Source: Pempheris klunzingeri
Taxonomy: Eukaryota; Chordata; Actinopteri; Acropomatiformes; Pempheridae
Length of the DNA stretch: 64,000 bases
Direction of reading: 5' to 3'
Assembly (NCBI RefSeq): GCF_042242105.1
Contig: NC_092027.1
Coordinates: forward strand, 6,104,721 to 6,168,720
How positions within the stretch are numbered: position 1 is the first letter of the stretch; every line of letters begins with the position of its first letter. Of this stretch, positions 35,001 to 60,700 are shown in pieces. The notes under the pieces are model-generated. The model had not been told where the DNA came from and searched no databases. It saw only the letters and a list, made by a program, of their open reading frames with translations. The position numbers were made by a program, and so were the translations under genes.

Positions 35001-35456
35001 AAAATTCAATAATTCATCAAACTGACTAATTTCAGAAACACTCGCATTGTGAAATAAGGCAAGTTCATCCACTGAGGTGGATCCAGGTCCAGTAAAACCA
35101 GCGTCTCTTTTTACATCTGTATCAGTTACAAGGGAGGAAAATGTTTTTATTTTGATTTTATCACGGACTCCCAGGAGACTAGTCTTGAGCTGAAAGGGAT
35201 CCAGATAAACACTTCCACTGTGCCTAAGTGCAAAAACACGCCCTGAGCAAACAAACTCGAAACTATCGACTCATTGTAAACAAAATTACTGAAAGAAGAG
35301 CGACTTCTGCTTCAAAAACACACACAGAAATCTACTTCTAATGTTTTCAAAGTGTGAATGCTTCCCATACCACAGATTCACATTTCACAACATCATCCAT
35401 AATCCTCACCTGTCGGAATCCAAACCTGTCAGCTACTTTGCCATAGAGAGAACGAT

Positions 35457-35504
<48 letters not shown>

Positions 35505-35529
35505 TACACACACACACACACACACACAG

Positions 35530-35603
<74 letters not shown>

Positions 35604-38600
35604 TCTCTGACGATGACTGTGACAGCGTCGCTACTCTGCAGCTTCCTGTCATCAGTTACTGTCAGGGTGAACTCGTACGTGCCGACCTCCAGACCTGTCA
35701 CCGTGGCAACAGCACTGTCTGCATTTTCAATCTTTACACCATCAGGACCCCTGGAGGAGGAACAGACGGACAGAGACAGAAAGAGAGAATGTAAAAGAGC
35801 ATTTACCGCACAGGGAGGCATAAACCCTGATTGCTCTGAAGCACACGTTTGTTTTTAAATTAGTTTCTTTGTATGTTTGCGGTGGATCTTTTAACGGACT
35901 GTGTTTCAGAGCCTGCAGCCAAACTGCCAGCACAGATCTGTATACAAGTCTGTGTCAGACTCACTTGGTCTGTTTCCAGTGGTAGGTGGCTATCTTCTGG
36001 TCATCACTGCTCTTACTGCCATCCAGCGTGGTTCGATCAACTGGCAGCGTCAGCTCTTTCTCCGGTCCTGCGTCTGCTACTGGTGGCTTATTGTTTTCTA
36101 GGGGACACGGGATAAGGAACCAAAAGAATCAGTTTTTGTTGTGAAACCCACATGAAAGATACAGTTTGAAGGGAGCTCGTGGCCGTGAAAAGTGGCTGGT
36201 GGTCCTCTGAGCTTACATGGAAACGATGTGAATCATTTCTTACACAAACAGTGCGGGCTGACAAATCTACCCTCGACAGTGCAGCATTAAAGGCCTTTCA
36301 AACTATGAAATTCTGCACTTAAATGTTTGGACATTTGGGTCAATATGCATAATTCTCTGGCTCTTATCCAAATTAGATCAGTGGCACTCAGATGAAAGAC
36401 AAGTGACTGTGCTTTATCTTAAAAATCAGAAGTGATGAGACGAGTGAGAAGGACACAACAACCTTCTTGATAAATAATACATCTGTGTATATGTGTTAAC
36501 TGAAGATGTAAGTTTTGTAAAGTCACGGTGTCGTGTAATCTCATGGAAACCCCAAATAAAACTAAACTAAGTGTACAGTCAAAGAACAGCAGTCCTGCTC
36601 TGAAATACCTGGACTTACAGACACTTCTTTCAGATATTATTACTCAACTGGTTGACATAGCTTGACCTTGCAGATGGATGTTTGTTCACATAACTGCTGT
36701 TCAAACACCGCAAAATCGTCTTGCCAGTGTGTGTTTGCAGTCCACAGTCTAGGCTACGATCTTATCGGGCTGAACGTGCACCTCCCAGCCACCGAGACAT
36801 AATGTTGTTTATCAGATCAGCAGCCTAAGTACCGACAGCAGCTTCACACATTATAGAGGCCAAGTATAAATACCGCGACATTATGCACTGCTGCTCTGTG
36901 TGCTCTTCACACTCCATGTGTACATTTGTATACAGTATGTGGGAGAGTGTAAGGGCGAACACACGGCATATCAGTGCAGAGGAAGTGGGCTGAAAATGCA
37001 GAGATAAGGAGTTTCTCTTTGAGTGGTGTACAAGTGCACACCACAAAGATTAAACTGCAATTATCGTCCTCAGCAGCTGATTAACCAATATTCCTCTCAG
37101 CTGACAACTGAAAAGTTCTCAGGAAGCATAAACAAGAGCTCTTGCTGTTTACCTGGTTGCACAATTACGGTGACCTGGGCGGTGTCCTGCTGTCCAGATG
37201 AGTCTGTCACCGTCAGCTGGAAGGTGTAGTCTCCCTCCTGCATAGCAGACAGCTGCAAGATCGGTGTCCGTACGCCCTAGAGAGCACAAAAAGACGCCAC
37301 CCTTAACCATGATTCTCTAATCACATGAAACTGAAACGCGAGGATTAATTGTATGAATAGTCCTAAAGTGACTCACCTGCATCTCCACCACCTTGTCTTT
37401 GCTCTCAGGGCTGAGGGACCACTCGTAGGACAGGGAATCATGGTCGTCGGTGCTTTGGTTGCCGTATAGAGTGATGGAGTTGCGTGGCAACTGGATGACC
37501 TGGATGAAGCCAGAGGAAAGACAAGCTATTGGTACTGACATTTCACGGGTTTAACTAACCTGCTTTACAATTACACAATTAAAAAAAAACGGTGGTTTGA
37601 TGCATTAATGAACAGAGCCATGATGATAGAAAACACATCAGACCTGGTTAGGGCCAGCATTGGCCACAGGCCGGTAGTCCTTGGCCTTGTTGACTGAGAG
37701 GGTGGCCTGTGTCGTGTCTGTGGCTCCGTCTGAGTCTGTCACTGTCAAACTGAGGTTCACACATTCACACGTTTAAATACACAAACTGTACGGCAAGCCG
37801 CTCTTAAATGAGTCAGTGGGATGTTTGCAGCATATGTATTGCTATTTTAACTTCATCGTCCCTACAGGACGACCGAGGTCCAGCTGTACCTGAATGTGTA
37901 GTTCCCATGCACCAGGCTGGTCAGGGTGAGGACGGGCGTGTCGGCAGAGACCTTCTCCTCCCTCAGGGGACCTTTAACCTCTTCCCAGTGCCACGCCACC
38001 ACCTTGTCATCATCGGTGCTCTCTGTCAGGCACGGGGGAAAATGGGCAGATATTTTCAGTACAAAGCCTCCTGTTAAATCTGTTTGTGTATCTGTGCATG
38101 TGTTTGCGTCGAGTGAGACACTCACGGCTGCCGTCTATGACCGTAGAGCTGGTTGGCAAGGAGATCTCCTGGAACTTTGGGGAAACTACAGCAACAGGAG
38201 GCTTGTTTACCCGCGGCTCTGTCAGGTGGAAAACGAGAAATTACCACGCTTATTGAGCTGTTCGTCAGCTGCATGTGACTGAGGCAGTACACACAAGTCA
38301 GTGGCTTCCCTTGGCTAAAGTTACAAATACAACTGTGTGTGGGAGGAAAGCAGCCTGGTCTTTTCAGCAATAAGATCCGTGTTTATACAGGCAACACAAA
38401 GGCATAACTGTAGACTGATTCCTGATAATCCTGCTGTAGCATGAAAGTCACACTATATTATTGCTCTGCTTAATTAGAATTAGAGTGTGGAGTATTGGGG
38501 TGATCAGTTAATAACATGCTGCCAATTGTCTTAAAAGACAGCAGCATTCACACAAACAGATACAGGCACTGGTTTAAATAGCAGAAACATGTTGCATTGC

Positions 38601-49800: not shown

Positions 49801-51401
49801 CATCCGGAAAAGGACAAGTTCTCTCTCTGTTTGGCCGTTTCTTCCTCCTCTCTGTCTCTCGGGAGTCAATAGCGCACTTGTCGGCTCTGTGCTGGTTTCC
49901 AGGCAGACAGGTTGGTGGAGATTTCTCAGTATAGACACCAAGTCCCACGCACTGTTCCTTCTGGCGGCTACAGGGAAGGAAGATTAAGTTGTTTTTATTT
50001 CTCTCCAAGGTCGAGTCCTTGAAAGAAAGAAAAAATCTGCAAAATAATATAATAATAATCCTTCCATTTTGCTGTGTCAACTAGAGACGCATCCTCACAG
50101 CAACAATTATTCTAATCCTAGGATGACACTTAAATGGATGCAAGTACCACAAGTATTGCAGCAATATCATAAAACTCTGAGTATGGGAATATCATAGGAG
50201 AATGAAAAATATGAGTACACTATGAGGCCATTATAGGTTAAGTCTTACAGCTGAGTAAGACCTCTGACTGTATATAAACATACTGTATTAGTGTCTAACT
50301 TCTAATAGATTTTTAGCCAGAAGACTCATATCAGCTTGTCTTGTATTTGCCTAATCATATTGATTTCAGTCACTTTTTCTGATTTATTGGATTTATTTTG
50401 CCTTGCAGGAATAACATAAGTCAGGATGCACTGATGGCAACATTTTCATTTGCTTTTAGTTTTTGCTGTCAGTTATTTTACTACTATTGGATGTCACTTT
50501 ATGTAACTTCTGTTACACTGAGGGATAAATCTCCGTTTCTTTGGGATGCCGCAAGTCAAACATTTCCCATCCCAGACGATGAAGACTTAACCGAGGGGTC
50601 AACAAATTGATTAGTGGGTCGGCATAAAACATAAAACCCATTCATAAATATCAAATATTGCTGGTTAGAGCCTCACGTGGAGTTGAATGTCCAACATTTT
50701 CATATCAAAGAGGAAGATTTAAGGATTTCTAAGCTCTTGATCTGACTAAGAGAGGAACATCACACAACTATTGAATAACACGTCTAAAAAGCAATCATGA
50801 AAATTAGTTAGTTAAGCCCTGCTCTATAAGAATGATTGAATCTTGCACAGTAATGGATTAACAGATTACACTGCAAACAAGTGCATGATTGAGTGCATGA
50901 ATGAACGGCTGTCAATCAAATGAAATGAATGAGAAGACGCACTGGGATAATATCTCTGAGACCTTTCAGTCAAAATGGTGGGCTCGTACATTATGCATCT
51001 CGCAAACCTGAGGACAAAAGTCAGGGTTGACTCAAAACGTGAAGTGTGTAGCTGCAAAGATAATTTAGTAAAAGGCCGGTGGCTGCAGCCTGCATAGTCC
51101 ACTGCACAATCACAAAATTACAAACGAGGGCTGGGTGAATGAATAATATGACACTTATAGTAACTGATCTTCCTTCCGTTTTAATGGGACACAGCGACGT
51201 CCCAGAGCCGAGGTTGAACACCATAAGGTAGATCACCTGTATAATCCGGGATCACCCCCCTGTTTAAGGCACCTTGAGGCTAACAGCTGCTGGCACACAT
51301 CGCTTTCACTACACACCGTGCAGGAACACGGACTCATCCGGTGCGTTTTAAAGGCAACTGTCACGACACCGTTAAAGAAAGAAAAGTGCGCAGGGACTTA
51401 C
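46886..51401 (-). other. kiaa0319l 5'UTR intron
   Basis: Between the two proposed 5'UTR exons. I see no conserved coding sequence on either strand. Short retroelement-tail-like fragments occur near 47870 and 49020-49070 but are too short to class. Confidence 0.35.
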
Positions 51402-52080
51402 GGTGCTACTGGCTCAGTGTTTCCTCTCCTCGGGTGGCTGTGATGAGATGTGTCGTCGTTGTTGTCGTCGCTGTTGGACAGTTAATTAGGTCAGTGTTCC
51501 TCTCGCTGTTACAGCTGATGTGCCAGTGTGACCACCGTCAAGCTAGTCCCTGTCCGACAAACGCTTCCGGTAGCTGGATTTTCAAAATAAAACCCCAACT
51601 GACACGACCGTTGGAGCGTTTTGCGGCCCACGGAAACACATTAGCCCACATTGACGATGACTCTGACAATAAATATGCAGTCAGTTATAATATTATATGA
51701 ATTAAATTACCCCGACGATATCTCAATTCTATATTTGTTTATGTTTTAACTTTTAGCTGAAAATCCGAGGCTACGTCACTTCCGCCACACGCCACCTGCC
51801 GACCAACTGTCAGGTTCAGCTCAGCATAAACAGTCAGGCCTGCTGAGCTTTTATGTGGTGTAATTAGCGCTGTAACACTAAACGAAAAAAAGGAGTAAAA
51901 ATGCTTTTCCACGACCTCAATAAATTGCGCGGCTTCGCTTCTCCGACGTTACAGGACGGACCAAAATGGCGTCTTCATCCTCCAACTATCCCTCTTGTGA
52001 TTGGCTCTTCGATATTGTTGGGCCGTTTTCATTGGCTAGTCGCAGCTTTATTTTGACTATTCACTTCCGGATTAGCACAT
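51402..52080. promoter_or_regulatory. divergent kiaa0319l/ncdn promoter
   Basis: A minus-strand donor AGCACC|GTAAGT (boundary 51402) marks the likely kiaa0319l first exon. The ncdn first exon ends at 52115 on the plus strand. Between them lie ETS-type sites (acttccgcc at about 51777, cacttccgga at about 52062), a YY1-like aaaatggcg (about 51963) and two inverted CCAAT boxes (gattggct about 51999, cattggct about 52030). There is no TATA box. This is the usual make-up of a bidirectional housekeeping promoter. Human KIAA0319L and NCDN are also head to head. Confidence 0.65.
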
Positions 52081-52115
52081 GAGCTGCTGTCGCATGTGGG
52101 AGCGCTGTAAACAAA
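52079..52115 (+). other. ncdn: ncdn exon 1 with possible upstream start (MSCC)
   Basis: The plus-strand exon ends ACAAA|GTAAGT. An ATG at 52079 opens the frame MSCCRMWERCKQ. With the standard acceptor (CACAG| at 52322) this frame misses the main ATG. With the AG five bases further on (52327) it reads in frame through I-E into the ncdn start at 52333. Confidence 0.4.
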
Positions 52116-52332
52116 GTAAGTTATTTTATGAACGTTTATTAACTTAAATGCCAAATTCATAGCAACCGTTTCTTAGAAATGGGTCTGCAAACCATCTGAA
52201 AATCATTAAATTAGGCTGCGCTCGCTGTGCTCAGCGGTGCGGAGCTAATGACATGATTACCAGCTTGATTTCCAACTCATTTCTTCAAGTTTAATTTCTC
52301 TTCACTCCTTTCCCGGTCACAGCAAAGTCGAA

Positions 52333-55300
52333 ATGGCTGACAGCACCGACGTTACACCTGTCGTGAGCAGCCAGCCTCCTGGCCAAGAGGAGCAGGGAGG
52401 AGGAGAAGGTGGAGGAGGCTCAGAGGGCGATGCAGGAGGTGGTTTGACTGATGCCCAGACAGAGGTGTTGGAGAAATGCCTTCATGCACTGAAGCATGCT
52501 AAAAATGACAGTCACACATTGGCCGCTCTTCTGCTGGTAAGTGTCTCTGATTTCCACTGATCCTCTGCGTCAATATTGTTTTATTAGTTTACCAGCTGTT
52601 TGCAAAATATGTGGCTTGATAATGACAGGAGAGTTTAGAAGCAGGGAAGTGAGGTGCTCAATATTTGTACAAATGCAGGTATTTAAGGGCACTGGGGGCA
52701 TAAAAGAGATTTGGACTGGTAAGGTAGCAATTCAGGAAAGACTCACCTCCTTTTTAATTCTTCTCTGTTTTGCTTTTCAAAATATGAGGATATGAGGGAA
52801 TCAGTTACTGCAATATTCCAATATTAACCTCATAATAAAAACATAGCCTTTAGTCTAACTGTAATGATGTAAAAAATCTAAATATATGAAACATCTCTTG
52901 GTATAATATGGTATAATTCAACAGAATCACAAATGACACCTTTGTAAAATGATTTAAGTTGAATCCACACCTGACTTTGAACAAAAACGGATCTGAACAA
53001 CACTCACAAAGGTAGGATTTATAGCAGAGGCGTTGTGTTTGACTGCATTCGTTTTATTGTAGCTCAGACTAACTAATAAACTGGTAACTGAGTGTTTATA
53101 GGGCTATGTATGATTGAGACCAAGGCTTCAGATGTCACCATTTACAGCTGGTTGTTTTCTGTTTTCCTCTCCCATGTCCAGATAACTCGCTTGTGCCCAG
53201 CCAGCCAGCTAGACAAGCCCACCTTGAGGCGCATCTTCGAGGCCGTTGGGTTGAACCTTCCAGCTCGGCTTTTGGTGACAGCGGTCAGAGGGAGTGACAA
53301 CTCCGGCTTGCCCCCACACGAGCTCCTTTCGCTGGGCACGGCTCTGCTGGCTGCCCTGAGCACAGACCCTGAGTTGGCCTCCCATCCCCAGCTCCTCACT
53401 ACCATCCCGCTCCTGCTGGGCATCTTAGCAAACGGTTCTGTGAGCCAGCAGGAACAGAACCAAGTTGGGGAGATGGGGCAGAGTCCAGATTGTAAAGTCC
53501 AATCAGCAGAGAGCTCAAACACAGGAAGTAATCCTGCCAATGCGGCAAAATCAGCAGGAGAGGGCAAGACCACCACGCAAAAGGGTTGTGATGGAAGTGA
53601 AACAAAGAAAACATCAACATCTCAAGAAAGCTCCGCGTTCGACGAGGCCATGGCTGCTGACTGCTACCAGGTCCTCACGTCTGTGTGTGCGTTACCCAGG
53701 GGCCCTGACCAGCTGCTGAACAGGGGGGCCATTCCTGCTCTGTGCCGAGCGGTGGAACAAAACCAGACTCTCAGCCACGAGAGGGGGCTTGCCTTACTTG
53801 GTTGCCTCCTCTCAGGTAAAGCCAAGGACAAAGCGTGGCGTAAACACCCCGCAGAGCTCCTCAGTCTGCTGGTCAGGCTCTCCAAAGACTTCTGCCAAGC
53901 CAAAGACCAGACCAGCTTGTCTATGTGTGCCCAGTTGGTGCAGTTTCTCCCCCCAGTAGGAGTGGCAGTAGAGGGTGAGGAGCTGAAGGGAGTCGTGGCC
54001 TGTGTGTGGGGGGTGTTGAGACCAATGATGCAGGCTAAGTTGACGCCGAGACAGATCGGGCCGATCCTGGTCCTCAGTGCCTGTCTGCTGGACTTGAATG
54101 GGTGGGAGCTGGCGGGACCGCCAAAGTTCTGCTGCTTACTGGTGAACCGGGCCTGTGTGGAGGTCAGGATGGGTTTGGAGGAGCCGCCTGGTAGTGAGCC
54201 GAGCCCAGAGCTGCAGCACACGCTCACAGGTAGTGTACTTATGTAAAATAGTACATCAATCTAGCTATTCAGAAGAACACTATAACAGTTTATGTTCATT
54301 GTTTGATTCCCGGGGCTGATTTTATGAAATGTACATGTGTGTATGCCTTAATTAATCGAGTCCAGAGTCTCTCAGTTGAATCCCCCATGATCTTTTTGAA
54401 TAGCCCTCATTTTGCTTATTAATTATTTAACAAAATATAGTTTCTGCAAATCATAATTACCTACACAGATGATATTTCAAAGCTGGTGACTAAATTTGGA
54501 AATGACTTTATTTCTGTGCATGTTTTTGGCCTGTAATAAGGCAAAAATATCTGAACCAGGTTTAAAAACCTTCCATGTATAATTTGTGCATACCATCATT
54601 TCCTTTTTTTATTTAATGAGCGCTTTGGCTTAGTCTTCCAGTTGTGTGTTATGAAACAGTGGCTAAGCTAGAATTGTGAAACCATGCGCATGCAAGTAAG
54701 ATTTAATTAACCTCCTACATTACTCAACCCCAGTCGTCTTGTTCCCAGGCTGTTACAGAATCATGGAGGCTGCCATCGAGCAGGCCTGCTGTCTGGGAGT
54801 GTCTCCGACCGCTGCACCTCCTCAGAGCTCCACCTCCTCTCTCAGCCTGCAGCAGAGCAGGCAGGTCCTCGGGGTGCTGGAGGAGGCCTTCTCTGCTTTA
54901 ATATACTACCTGCAGCAGGTGAGAGGACAACGTTTAAGCTTCTGTTTATAGCCAACAAGCTATTTGTTGCTGGTTCTGCAAATTTAATCACTCATTGTGT
55001 ACCAAAGTGTTCTGTGACAAAAATGTACATCCTGTTCTTATAGGTGGATCCCAGTCGCTATGGTGACCCTTTTGTTTTTGCCACTTTCCGCTCTCTTTGC
55101 TCGTGGCTGGCCGAGGAGACTTCCTGTCTGAAGGAGGAGGTGACTGGACTGTTGCCATTCCTGATCGGCTACTCCCGGAGCCACCTGCAGGGCGAGAGCC
55201 CCGAGCAGGGCCTCTCTGAGTGGATGGCCGAGATGTCCGTCAGAGAGGGGGGCGGGGCGTGGACGGGCAGAGAGGCTCTGAGGTAAAGATGCCGATGCAT

Positions 55301-58248
55301 AGCAGCGGGAATCGGTCACAACAATACAAAAAAACGCCAGTGCTTTAATCCATAGATTCTGCAGTCTGACAGTAATCTGAAAGCACTCCGTTCTTCCTCT
55401 TCTTCCCTTGCTCCCCCCTTCAGGTATCTCCTCCCAGCTCTCTGCCACCTGTCGGCAGAGGAAGGTCCCAGGAAGGTGCTGCTCACCCTCGACACCCCGA
55501 ACCTGCTGGTGGACTTCCTGTCGCAGTGCTGGACTTCACTCAAGGGGAAAAGCGGGGCGACGTCGGTCAGAGATCCCAGCATGGAGACCGCCTGCTCAGC
55601 CCTCCTTAACTTCACCGTCACAGAGCCGGAGAGAGTCAGGTAGCAGGTCTACACACTGAAACACTCCTGTGAAGCCTCCACATTAACCAGCTGTTGTTTT
55701 TAACTCGGTACAAAATGTGTTTAACAGTTCACGATGGCTTATATTTAATCTATTTCTGTTATGTTGTCCAGGAAGGACCCGTGTTTCAAAGCGCTGGAGG
55801 CTCTTCTGAGTGAAGCACTTCCTGTTTTGGTGCATAAACCTCACCTGCTCGTCCTAGCAGCAAATTTCTGCACGCTGGGCCTAATGACGGGCAGACTCAA
55901 ATCCGCTCCTGCAGGTGAAAATGTCGTCTTTTTGTTTGGGAGTTTTTCTGCCACCTTGTATATTTTCACTGGCTTGGCTGTCAAAACAATGATAAATGAT
56001 CATACATGATATCTGCAGCACTGAAGTTCCCTTTAGACTTGGTTGTTTTCCTTTTAGTTACTAACATGAAATTTTGACATATTGCATAAATGTGCAAAAA
56101 AATTAGGCACATATTGGATAAGTAAGTGAATGTGGTGTAGGATTCTCCAAGTTTATATTACTTTATTTTGTGTCAGTCCCTTTTAAGAAACACACCCCTC
56201 TTGATCGGCCTGTGAGGGGAACACCGACAAACTGTACTAAACAAGCCACAATCGCTGTTCTCCACCCAGGAGTATTGTCGTTCCACCAAAGTACAAAGCT
56301 CCTCTTTCTTCCTATAGCGTTGTAATTTTCTTTTGCTGAGAGGCTAAGTGGGGCTCAAAGGACATCCCGTAAAGTATTTTACCTTCCCCACGTGAATCAC
56401 AATGAATTTCATTGCTCACATGTCTTGTTTTAGTGCTTTTATTTGCATTTTCATTTACTGTTGTGGACTCAGGTTCAAGCTCCTGTGCTTCTAAACAAGC
56501 CTTTTCTCACAGCAGACACGTCATCGTAGGTAAATCACAGGTGTCAGCAGTAACGTTACTGATGGCTCCGCTCTGTTCTAATGTCCCAGTAAGCCCTCTG
56601 ACAGCGAGTTAACATTCACAACACCCTGAAACAGAATTGGCTTTTATTAATTTGATCACAGAGTTTTTCCTTCCTGTGACATGTGAGAATGTCCTCTGTG
56701 ACGGAGGCCTGGAGACCACAGCTGTGGAGCTGGCAAACCTAAATGGAACCCAGCCATTACTAATGGCGTTAGTTACCCTTCTGCGTTTCCCCTCTATAAC
56801 TGCTTTGATTCTTATGGGAATGCAGATCATGTGGACTCTGGGTTGGGCAGAAACGTGGCTGTGCACAAGAAGCAGATTAGGGCTGTAAACATTACTTTGC
56901 CCTTTTTAAAACTTTGGTTAAAGGGATAGTTCAGATTTTTTGAAGTGGGGTTGTATGAGGTACCTATCCAAAGTCAGTGTATTACCTTGTTTGGAGACAC
57001 TAAGCAATATGCTGCGGTCGACAGGGTCAGCAGAGAGCCATATTTTAGTCCCTTTAAATAAAAAGCCCATTTAAAAAAATCAATATCAGTTTATGTGTAC
57101 TCTATATTTAGAGTAGTTTCACCACTGTTGTCCGACAGCCCTTTCCAAGTGGGAGTTGAAGCCGTCAAAGCTGCCAGACTCCACTGATTTAAAAACAGTA
57201 AGTTTACCTTGCAGAATACTGGAGTTGCTGGACTGCTGCTGCCTTGATAAACGAACTAACTCATCAGTTAGGATTCACAACTCATTCAACTTCATTTTAA
57301 ACACAAAAAGTCACACAATAACACAAGCAGACTAACTGGTTGAGGCGGCAGTCGACCAGCAACTCTGCAATTGCTGTATTTCTCTAGTCTAGTCTCGAGT
57401 CTAGCAGTTTTGCCAATACAGCGGCTTCAGTTCACCTACGGAGGGGGCCGTCTGGCAGAAAGATCAGTGGTGAAAATGCTGTATACGCTCAAAATGGTAT
57501 TGATTTATTTTTTTTAAGGCTCCTGCCTGTTTCTCCAAACTGGGCATGTGCCAATCACAATTTACTGTAGGTAATAAACTACTATGGATACATACCTCAT
57601 GCAACCCCTCTTCAAAAAATCCCAACTAACCCTTTAATGTTAACTGAGTTTCAGAAAATATGCTTAGAAGTGCTTTAATGAATAAGTCTGTTGTGAAATG
57701 GGTCCCTTGTAATGTCGATGTCATGGGTGATTTTCTCACAGTTTAAATTGGCACAAAATGTTATTTGTAGCCTTGGTTTAAAAATATAAGACTCTATTGA
57801 CAACGTGCACTGTTTTTTTTACTTTCCAGGCTCCGTTGAAGCCGGCCAGAGGCGGTTCTTCTCCTCCGCTCTCAGGTTCCTCCGCAGCGCCCTGGACTCT
57901 GGCTCCGGCTCCGGTCCGGTCAGGGTGAGCCTCGGCTGGGAGGAGAGCTGGGACGAGGCCGCGGAGCTGTGGAGGTTGAGTCTGCAGGCTCTGGGGGGCT
58001 GCGTCCGCTCTCAGCCCTGGATCTCCACCCTGGTCAGAGAGGAAGGTTGGCTCAAACACACACTCGCCATGCTGAGTCAGTGTAGCGCACTACCTGACCA
58101 GCACACACAGGGGGCGCTAGAGGAGGCTCTGTGTGCCATGGCTGACCAGTGCCCGGCCTGTAAAGCAGAGATTGGTGACATGATGAGAAATGATAAAGGA
58201 GCTTTGATCTGTATGAGGAACCTGAGGAAGTCAGTGGGAGTGAAGTGA
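52333..58248 (+). CDS. ncdn: neurochondrin (norbin)
   Basis: Seven coding exons: 52333-52536, 53182-54229, 54749-54918, 55044-55282, 55424-55639, 55772-55914, 57830-58248 (2439 nt, 812 aa; human 729). Neurochondrin is a mostly neuronal, helical-repeat cytosolic protein that binds mGluR5 and other receptors, associates with Rab5 endosomes and promotes neurite outgrowth. Conserved blocks include the N-terminal LxALxxAKNDS...AALLL, IFDAVGF-like IFEAVGL, DPELASHPQ, CYQVLTSV...PRGP, LACVEVR-like ACVEVRMGLEE, the WLAEETS..LK.EV..LLPFL block of exon 4, and the last exon. There is a Gly/Glu-rich N-terminal stretch, and a roughly 70-residue polar insertion around residues 153-223 explains most of the extra length. 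It is divergent from kiaa0319l and upstream of tfap2e, as in human 1p34.3. An in-frame longer N-terminus is possible (see 52079). Confidence 0.94.
56922..57633. mobile_element. MITE with TTAA target duplication
   Basis: In ncdn intron 6. The left end TTAA-AGGGATAGTTCAGATTT, with following TTGAAGTGGGGTTG, is mirrored at the right end (CAACCCCTCTTCAA...CTAACCCT-TTAA). This gives inverted repeats of about 45 bp and flanking TTAA at 56918-56921 and 57634-57637. The length is about 712 bp with no transposase. TTAA duplications fit piggyBac or Kolobok-type transposition, and I cannot choose between them. Confidence 0.75.
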
Positions 58249-59029: not shown

Positions 59030-59869
59030 TAACTTGGGGTCATCGGGTGTCTTTCTCACCCAGGAGAACCAACCAGGGTTGATCAGGCTCCAGTTTGTGT
59101 CCAAACCATCTAGATGCCTTCTCTGCAGCTCCAGTGGTGGTCTTGGTGGTTTTTCTGTGCAGTCCTTTGAAGCCAAGGAGCTTAAGGGCCCTGTAGAGAG
59201 ACCGCCCAGCAAAGCCTGTGCAGCCCACCCTTATCAGGACGCACTGCGCCCACCATCCCCGCTTCCGGCACTCGCTGACCAGGTCCTCACACTTGGCCCT
59301 CTTCCTCTCGTTCGCCTCGTCCATCCGTTCTTCCCAGGAAGCAGTCCGCTCCAACAGGACCACCTGTCTTGATGTTTTCGACATCGGGACCATGTCTGGC
59401 CTTAGTGTGGTTACCGTGATGGATTCTGGGAACTTGAGCTTCCTCCCTCGGTCGACCTGACACTCCTGCCTGCACTTGTGGTTTCTCCCCTGCCTTGACG
59501 AATGTGATGTCTTGTCTCGCTCGGCTGGTCCTTGTGCAGATGGAAGACGGCTGCTGCCTTCAGGACCTGGTCGTGGCGCCAGCGGTAGTTTCCCTCTCCC
59601 AGAGCCTTCGGGCAACAGCTGAGGATGTGTTCGAGTGATCCTCTTCTCTGACACATGGGGCATGCTGGAGTTTCAGCCAAGCTCCAATGAAACGGGCTGG
59701 ATGGGCTGAGAAGAACATCATATGCTGACTGGATCCATAGCGGCTCTGCCTTCCAGAGCTCAGGCCAAGAGATCTTCCTTTCCAAGACTTCCTCCCATCT
59801 GGTCCATGCACCTTGTTGAAGGGAATAGATATAACACTGGTGGTAAAATCTTACAGACCAGGATCTCAC
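59030..59869 (-). pseudogene. decayed non-LTR retrotransposon 3' end with restriction-like endonuclease domain
   Basis: On the minus strand, 59869 to about 59520 encodes a block with the zinc-knuckle CPMC-x7-H-x4-C, followed by GNYRWRHDQVLK. Another frame, about 59475 to 59040, continues with LRPDM-x11-LLE and WEERMDEANERKRAKCEDL. A CCHC knuckle followed by R/KPD...E is the signature of the restriction-enzyme-like endonuclease at the C-terminus of R2/R4-class non-LTR elements; in fish this suggests a Rex6/Dong-like element. At least two frameshifts lie between about 59520 and 59460, and no reverse transcriptase domain is present, so the copy is 5'-truncated and dead. The class is my inference from motifs. 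Confidence 0.75.
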
Positions 59870-60700
59870 AGCAGGCTCCCTGCCGTTAACCCATCAGTCC
59901 TCTTTTCTCTGAACTACCACAAGATGGCGCACTGAGATTTGTTTGGGCCTGATGTTCCTTGAAGTTCCTAATAACTGACTTTACTTCTATCTCTGTGTGT
60001 GTGTGTGTGTTTGAGCATTTGCAAAGAAGATCTGAAGGCAAAACTTTGGAGTGATTTGTTTTTCGTTTAATTATTATTTTTTTGCTTCCTAGGTCGAATT
60101 TGGGAAAACAAGAAGGTTGGCCATTTTAATTGATGACCCGTTGGGGAAAAAAGATGATTAAGGAATAAAGAAAATGCTGATTGATTAAAATAGTGCATTT
60201 CTTTTCAGTTATTAATACAGACCTTCCTTAAAGAGCAACAGACACTCGTAGAAAAGCGACCTACTCAAATCAGTTAAATGCTAAATGTAGGTTTTTCTTT
60301 ATTCTGCAGATATTTGGATGCATTTATTATTTTCTTAGAATATTTTTATGATGATGAATTTACAATAAAGACATTACATGGAAGTGTGTGTAATGCAGAA
60401 TTGTCCTCAAAGGAAGAAAATCAGTGTGTTAATATCGTTGCTGTGCTTTGTGTTAATCACTGGCCACCTACTTTTTCCTCCTCACCATCATCCCTGATGC
60501 TGTAGTCTTCACACACACCGCGTGAAAAAAAAAAAGTTTTTAGTTACCCCCACCGCGACTCCCATCACCTCCCGCCCTCTTTTTTTTTTTTTGTACCCCC
60601 CTCCCTCTCCCCCCCAACACGCATCCATACAAACTCCTGCATCGTCTCTCAAACTAACTCACTCCTCTCTGCACCTTCAGCCCGTCTCCTCTCCATCCAC
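59870..60700. other. ncdn-tfap2e intergenic spacer
   Basis: AT-rich sequence with a short GT run near 59995-60011 and homopolymers. I see no exon, RNA gene or identifiable repeat. From about 60520 it becomes pyrimidine- and CpG-richer toward the upstream tfap2e exon. Confidence 0.5.

Follow-up and report, generated by a model that had tools for sequence, protein, structure and literature searches.

Does the first exon of a fish neurochondrin gene (ncdn) encode the N-terminus of a palmitoylated long isoform, and if so, which splice sites bring this N-terminus into frame with the body of the protein? The question arises because the exon, which could be taken for a leader, carries an ATG followed directly by Ser-Cys-Cys (MSCC), whereas the downstream start codon for the remainder of the protein (MADS) resides in exon 2. 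We examined the gene model, the reading frames created by the candidate splice sites, the genomic distribution of the MSCC arrangement, and the published findings on mammalian neurochondrin.

The ncdn locus

The gene is located on the + strand of the window, which is the whole 64-kb stretch of DNA that was analyzed. Its eight exons extend from 52079 to 58248 and were drawn by eye using splice consensus sequences and the open frame (Table 1). A match to the Pfam family PF05536 (Neurochondrin) with an E value of 1.8e-111 identifies the gene as neurochondrin. When the genome (646 Mb, 439 contigs) was searched with Pfam, with only the best candidates scored, all four of the four candidate matches fell inside ncdn. 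A paralog or pseudogene was also sought, and none was found among these best-scored candidates. The presence of a single gene with a clean eight-exon model supports the account given below. A repeat or transposon origin for exon 1 was rejected: the 401-base stretch 51940-52340 matches the genome once, at its own place.

Two other searches bear on the N-terminus or on the window as a whole. The Pfam profile is of no use as an N-terminal homology test, its best stretch covering residues 237-735, and no solved structures with homology to the N-terminus were found at E <= 0.01. A scan of the window for RNA families (at the gathering score) and for tRNAs returned none of either.

Elsewhere in the window, exons for a KIAA0319L-like PKD domain are located at 35429-38134 on the minus strand (Pfam PF22352; of two matches, one exceeds the cut-off and the other falls slightly short of it), and a long CA/GT repeat adjoins one of these exons. 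In the human gene order, NCDN lies beside KIAA0319L. The same neighborhood may exist here, the annotation on this side of ncdn reaching as far as 38 kb. Overlapping open frames are also present at 59040-59893 on the minus strand. By their appearance, these may represent the terminal part of a reverse transcriptase from a non-LTR retrotransposon, including a zinc finger of the CPMCQRRGSLEHILSCC type.

Table 1. Coordinates in the window of the ncdn features discussed in the text (a slash marks the exon boundary).
Feature	Position	Strand	Details
Coding portion of ncdn exon 1 (putative long form)	52079..52115	+	MSCCRMWERCKQ and one base of the following codon
Main donor of exon 1, GTAAGT (exon ends at 52115)	52116..52121	+	4.7 bits; six other ncdn donors 1.2-6.8
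Alternative donor CAT/GTGGGA, last exon base 52095	52096..52101	+	0.9 bits; with 52322 gives in-frame MSCCRIKVE-MADS
Acceptor AG1 (CACAG/C), predicted major site	52321..52322	+	5.4 bits; with donor 52115, MSCC is out of frame
Acceptor AG2 (AAAG/T), 5 nt past AG1	52326..52327	+	-2.7 bits; MSCC in frame to MADS
Upstream ORF, exon 2 part (joins 52079-52115)	52323..52366	+	end obtained by arithmetic from the translated length
MADS start codon, short form of 812 aa	52333..52335	+	GTCGAAATGGC, a strong context with G at both -3 and +4
Remaining ncdn coding region, seven exons	52328-52536, 53182-54229, 54749-54918, 55044-55282, 55424-55639, 55772-55914, 57830-58248	+	gene model

An open MSCC frame in exon 1

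Inspection of the sequence reveals that ATGAGCTGCTGT begins at 52079 on the + strand and that its frame remains open for 37 nt, up to the donor CAAA/GTAAGT. From this ATG onward, the exon reads ATG AGC TGC TGT CGC ATG TGG GAG CGC TGT AAA CAA A/GTAAGT. Exon 2 begins either after CACAG (52322) or after CACAGCAAAG (52327), and its sequence then reads TCGAA ATG GCT GAC AGC. The frame, the splice sites, and the unique placement of the exon in the genome are direct observations.

When 52115 is joined to 52327, the translated gene model reads MSCCRMWERCKQIEMADS, which equals MSCCRMWERCKQIE-MADS and continues for 826 aa over eight exons, compared with 812 aa from the MADS start. Splicing could thus potentially connect the Met-x-Cys-Cys start of a putative long isoform, in frame, with the remainder of the protein. 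Joining 52115 to 52322 produces a 26-codon ORF from the MSCC ATG that ends in exon 2 past the MADS start, and so overlaps this start codon out of frame. A sequence-only reading of this locus had proposed that the MSCC frame is open to the donor, that 52327 joins it in frame as MSCCRMWERCKQ-IE-MADS, and that the upstream AG converts it into an overlapping upstream ORF. Its coordinates, sequence and frame arithmetic for exon 1 are correct, and translation bears out both reading frames, at 826 aa and 26 codons, respectively.

The two start codons differ in their contexts. The MSCC ATG is in a weak context (TAGCACATGAG, with C at -3 and A at +4), whereas the context of the MADS codon is strong. 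Under the established rules of scanning, some ribosomes should reach MADS by leaky scanning whichever acceptor is used.

Correspondence with the mammalian isoform pair

Human and mouse norbin/neurochondrin occurs as 729-aa and 712-aa isoforms that are generated by alternative splicing, cited as UniProt Q9Z0E0-1 and -2 (PMC10586782). The same source reviews the palmitoylation of C3 and C4 in mammals together with early-endosome targeting, and describes the 712-aa form, which starts at M18, as being without these cysteines. Sites 3 and 4 of neurochondrin are also tabulated as experimentally positive (PMC3929663), and the human short start is given as MASDC by a cloning primer (PMC5963842). The suggestion that the mammalian protein has a palmitoylated N-terminus agrees with the C3/C4 sites, the second start at M18, and the 729/712-aa layout described in PMC10586782.

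The fish gene resembles this arrangement. It belongs to the same gene family, carries Cys3 and Cys4 in its predicted long form, and has a predicted short form whose start is the following in-frame Met (MADS in fish, MASD in human). The MSCC residues thus occur at the place of mammalian C3/C4, with an extension of 14 rather than 17 residues before MADS rather than MASDC, which supports our account. Because the published mammalian layout is the same, the fish case can be viewed as the counterpart of a known isoform pair, the long and short forms having been published previously for mammals. Human neurochondrin presumably begins with MSCC letter for letter; the remainder of the fish extension differs from the mammalian sequence. 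Given these similarities, MSCC is very probably the ortholog of the mammalian palmitoylated long-form N-terminus and a genuine coding N-terminus.

Overall, the predicted fish long form (826 aa) exceeds its mammalian counterpart (729 aa) by 97 residues. A Gly/Glu-rich stretch follows the MADS start (52387-52440) and a low-complexity polar stretch is present in exon 3 (53440-53640). Judging from the sequence, these stretches may account for much of this excess.

Could the MSCC placement be due to chance?

The strict MSCC codon word is present once in the 64-kb window when both strands are considered, whereas 0.39 occurrences are expected from a first-order base model. The mere presence of this word in the window is therefore ordinary. 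Its position is not, because the same model predicts about 0.00015 in-frame MSCC words per 150-nt leader.

We also searched the genome (646 Mb) for the pattern ATG-WSN-TGY-TGY-N20-30-GTAAGT, with the reversed pattern serving as a control. There are 34 matches to the pattern versus 32 to the reversed control, which places the pattern alone at background. Strict MSCC codons are present in five of the 34 matches, and only one of these five is open to its donor. This match is exon 1, immediately 5' of ncdn exon 2, and its status as the sole strict MSCC frame open to GTAAGT supports our account. The pattern was chosen after the exon had been seen, and so the search demonstrates specificity rather than providing a clean p-value or formal test. 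A chance origin of MSCC at ncdn exon 1 is unlikely. Among viral and prokaryotic contigs, 1 and 34 pattern stretches, respectively, were encountered, and none was confirmed as a relative.

Strengths of the splice sites

Donors and acceptors were scored with weight matrices based on assumed vertebrate consensus frequencies. AG2 at 52327 (AAG/T) scores -2.7 bits versus 5.4 bits for AG1 at 52322 (CAG/C), and it falls below all six other ncdn acceptors, which range from 4.1 to 11.0 bits. Five of these six acceptors have C at -3, the sixth has T, and none has A; AG1 has C at this position. The predicted share of AG2 is 0.4% when the whole site is considered and 4.7% when local bases are used (2.4-9% over the range of assumed frequencies). 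Four candidate branch points are present in 52261-52320. The nearest, 52304, is separated from AG1 by 18 nt and from AG2 by 23 nt, distances at which we take both to be usable.

Published surveys are consistent with a bias toward AG1. Acceptor usage has been observed to track weight-matrix strength when neighboring sites differ, in a study of 3-nt pairs (PMC1449888), and the upstream acceptor of tandem pairs tends to be favored and more strongly expressed (PMC8055015). The greater strength and upstream position of AG1 support our account. The best pair of all is the out-of-frame default 52115/52322, with a summed score of 10.2. Thus, the site scores predict that the short form is the default and that the long form is in the minority.

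Evidence from mammals is mixed on this point. The short-form transcript predominates in RNA-seq data from newborn mouse brain, which fits a short-form default (PMC10586782). However, mammalian northern and western blots are described in the same source as displaying single bands only, presumed to be full-length, which counts against such a default; the predominance of the short form is extrapolated from transcripts. Furthermore, near-exclusive use of 52322 would mean that MSCC is hardly ever in frame, and this sits badly with its conservation. The splice sites that mammals use for the two isoforms are not given in the accessible passages of the neurochondrin literature.

A model for long and short neurochondrin

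We propose that ncdn exon 1 encodes the conserved N-terminus of a long form whose Cys3 and Cys4 are palmitoylation sites, as has been shown in mammals and as we infer here. The MADS codon of exon 2 would be the start of the short isoform. In the most abundant mRNA, 52115 is probably joined to 52322, and in this transcript the weak-context MSCC ATG would be bypassed by leaky scanning such that ribosomes initiate at MADS. Ribosomes that do not bypass the MSCC ATG would read the 26-codon ORF to a dead end. A minority mRNA would restore the frame via 52327, or via 52095 with 52322, to yield the long palmitoylatable form. Both mRNAs would then exist, one route would presumably predominate, and the cysteines would be acylated. 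On balance, we believe that this account is probably correct by one route or the other. We give slightly less than even odds to the view that the MSCC form arises mainly through acceptor 52327.

Another splice pair might produce the long form, in which case the switch would be at the donor and the AG at 52327 would be a bystander. The chief candidate is 52095/52322 (MSCCRIKVE-MADS), and 52095/52289 or 52119/52322 are less likely. All three are in frame, and their summed scores of 6.3, 2.0, and 0.3, respectively, compare with 2.1 for 52115/52327. Four further in-frame donor/acceptor pairs score below zero. However, the donor at 52095 must compete with the GTAAGT donor 20 nt downstream (0.9 versus 4.7 bits), which leaves it with a share of about 7% by weight matrix, and the frequencies used for scoring are assumed ones. 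We regard this possibility, which overlaps with our own account, as somewhat unlikely but worth serious consideration. It also qualifies the earlier suggestion that a 5-nt acceptor choice switches between the isoforms. Both AGs are indeed present and create the frames proposed, but AG2 is far weaker than AG1 and is outscored by 52095/52322. Thus, the sequence gives no specific reason to attribute the long/short switch to the 5-nt acceptor choice.

Alternatively, the MSCC ATG of this fish might only be a relic or the start of an upstream ORF with a regulatory role, with 52322 used throughout, any use of 52327 representing noise, and all protein made from MADS. The best-scoring pair does yield an overlapping ORF, the contexts of the two start codons favor MADS, and small exon length variations at close acceptors have been argued to be mostly noise (PMC1449888). 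Retention of M-S-C-C, with its cysteines at the residues palmitoylated in mammals, would be unexpected if the peptide were irrelevant, as would the occurrence here of the only such open frame among the 34 genome matches. We therefore judge this explanation improbable.

Candidate promoter motifs and leader

Our preferred account requires that transcription begin upstream of the MSCC codons. The sequence ahead of the ATG contains two inverted CCAAT boxes (52000 and 52031), followed by an Inr-like TCACTTC (52061) and an ETS site (52063). These motifs are short, and the Inr-like pattern occurs five times in 51300-52340. A transcription start near the MSCC ATG, on either side, is plausible from these sequence features. 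A start at or after 52079 is possible, and the Inr-like and ETS elements at 52061-52070 count against our account in this respect. If transcription began after 52081, the long form would be removed, and a very short leader would favor leaky scanning. It is nonetheless doubtful that transcription starts from 52079 or downstream so as to leave the MSCC codons outside most mRNAs, because, plausible as these motifs make a start close to the ATG, they are short and recurrent and the GTAAGT donor at 52116 requires an upstream exon.

Two other features of this region were observed. An ATG in a strong context (ACCAAAATGGC, also a YY1-like motif) opens a 38-codon ORF at 51966-52082, whose TGA overlaps the MSCC ATG (ATGA). 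In transcripts with a 5' end before 51966, MSCC would be shielded by this ORF. In addition, the 9-mer TCACTTCCG, which is ETS/Inr-like, is present at 51776-51784 and 52061-52069, both upstream of the MSCC ATG. These are its only two occurrences on the + strand of the 64-kb window, the strand that was scanned.

Membrane anchoring and localization

A choice between a membrane-anchored and a soluble protein, as the sequence-only reading envisioned, oversimplifies the situation. The primer used to amplify a human NCDN-GFP plasmid (...ATGGCCTCGGATTGCG) begins at the short start, and the construct thus is without Cys3/Cys4. Even so, NCDN-GFP partly colocalized with Rab5, and co-purified with it, when the two were co-transfected into SH-SY5Y cells (PMC5963842). 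This result bears on how strictly palmitoylation is needed. The same plasmid also served for work on SMN (PMC5963842). Moreover, phosphatidic acid is bound by both forms, the 712-aa form included (PMC10586782), and palmitoylation was considered an unlikely cause of recruitment to the plasma membrane (PMC4813545).

Neurochondrin palmitoylation is reported to shift with plasticity protocols in rodent neurons, decreasing in cultures and increasing in slices (PMC12515174). Anchoring can thus be regulated post-translationally too.

Implications

Confirmation of the MSCC frame in fish would place the origin of the palmitoylated long isoform before the divergence of fish and tetrapods. Such an age would support a function for this isoform rather than its being a mammalian curiosity. 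Fish ncdn models that start at a MADS-type methionine would then miss the anchor, and exon 1 together with the exon 2 acceptor would be a simple place for genetic separation of the isoforms in fish. We consider it quite unlikely that the 5-nt tandem acceptor of fish is a conserved, neuron-regulated switch between palmitoylated endosomal neurochondrin and an inhibitory upstream ORF, setting both the anchor and the level of translation.

The mammalian N-terminal peptide was not found among the papers searched for it, and guessed primer words were likewise unmatched. Splicing of fish ncdn is absent from the titles among the neurochondrin and zebrafish matches listed. Searches for ncdn with fish names, and for neurochondrin with uORF or tandem-acceptor terms, returned nothing relevant among the matches listed, which leaves prior publication unsettled.

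Comparison with known systems

The arrangement at exon 2 is like that of other tandem acceptors, including NAGNAG sites and those with wider spacings, in that two AGs are located a few nucleotides apart and share one polypyrimidine tract. Unlike NAGNAG-type sites, the 5-nt spacing causes a frame shift, and so the effect here would be on start codon choice rather than on an internal residue.

The predicted long form also has parallels among other proteins. Some N-termini are dually palmitoylated, such as that of GAP-43 (MLCC...), and palmitoylated N-termini are selected by splicing in PSD-95 and GRIP1b. As in GAP-43, the fish neurochondrin cysteines come directly after the start and are followed by basic residues (R5, R9, and K11). 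GAP-43, PSD-95, and GRIP1b are unrelated proteins, and their resemblance to fish neurochondrin is solely in how such N-termini might work.
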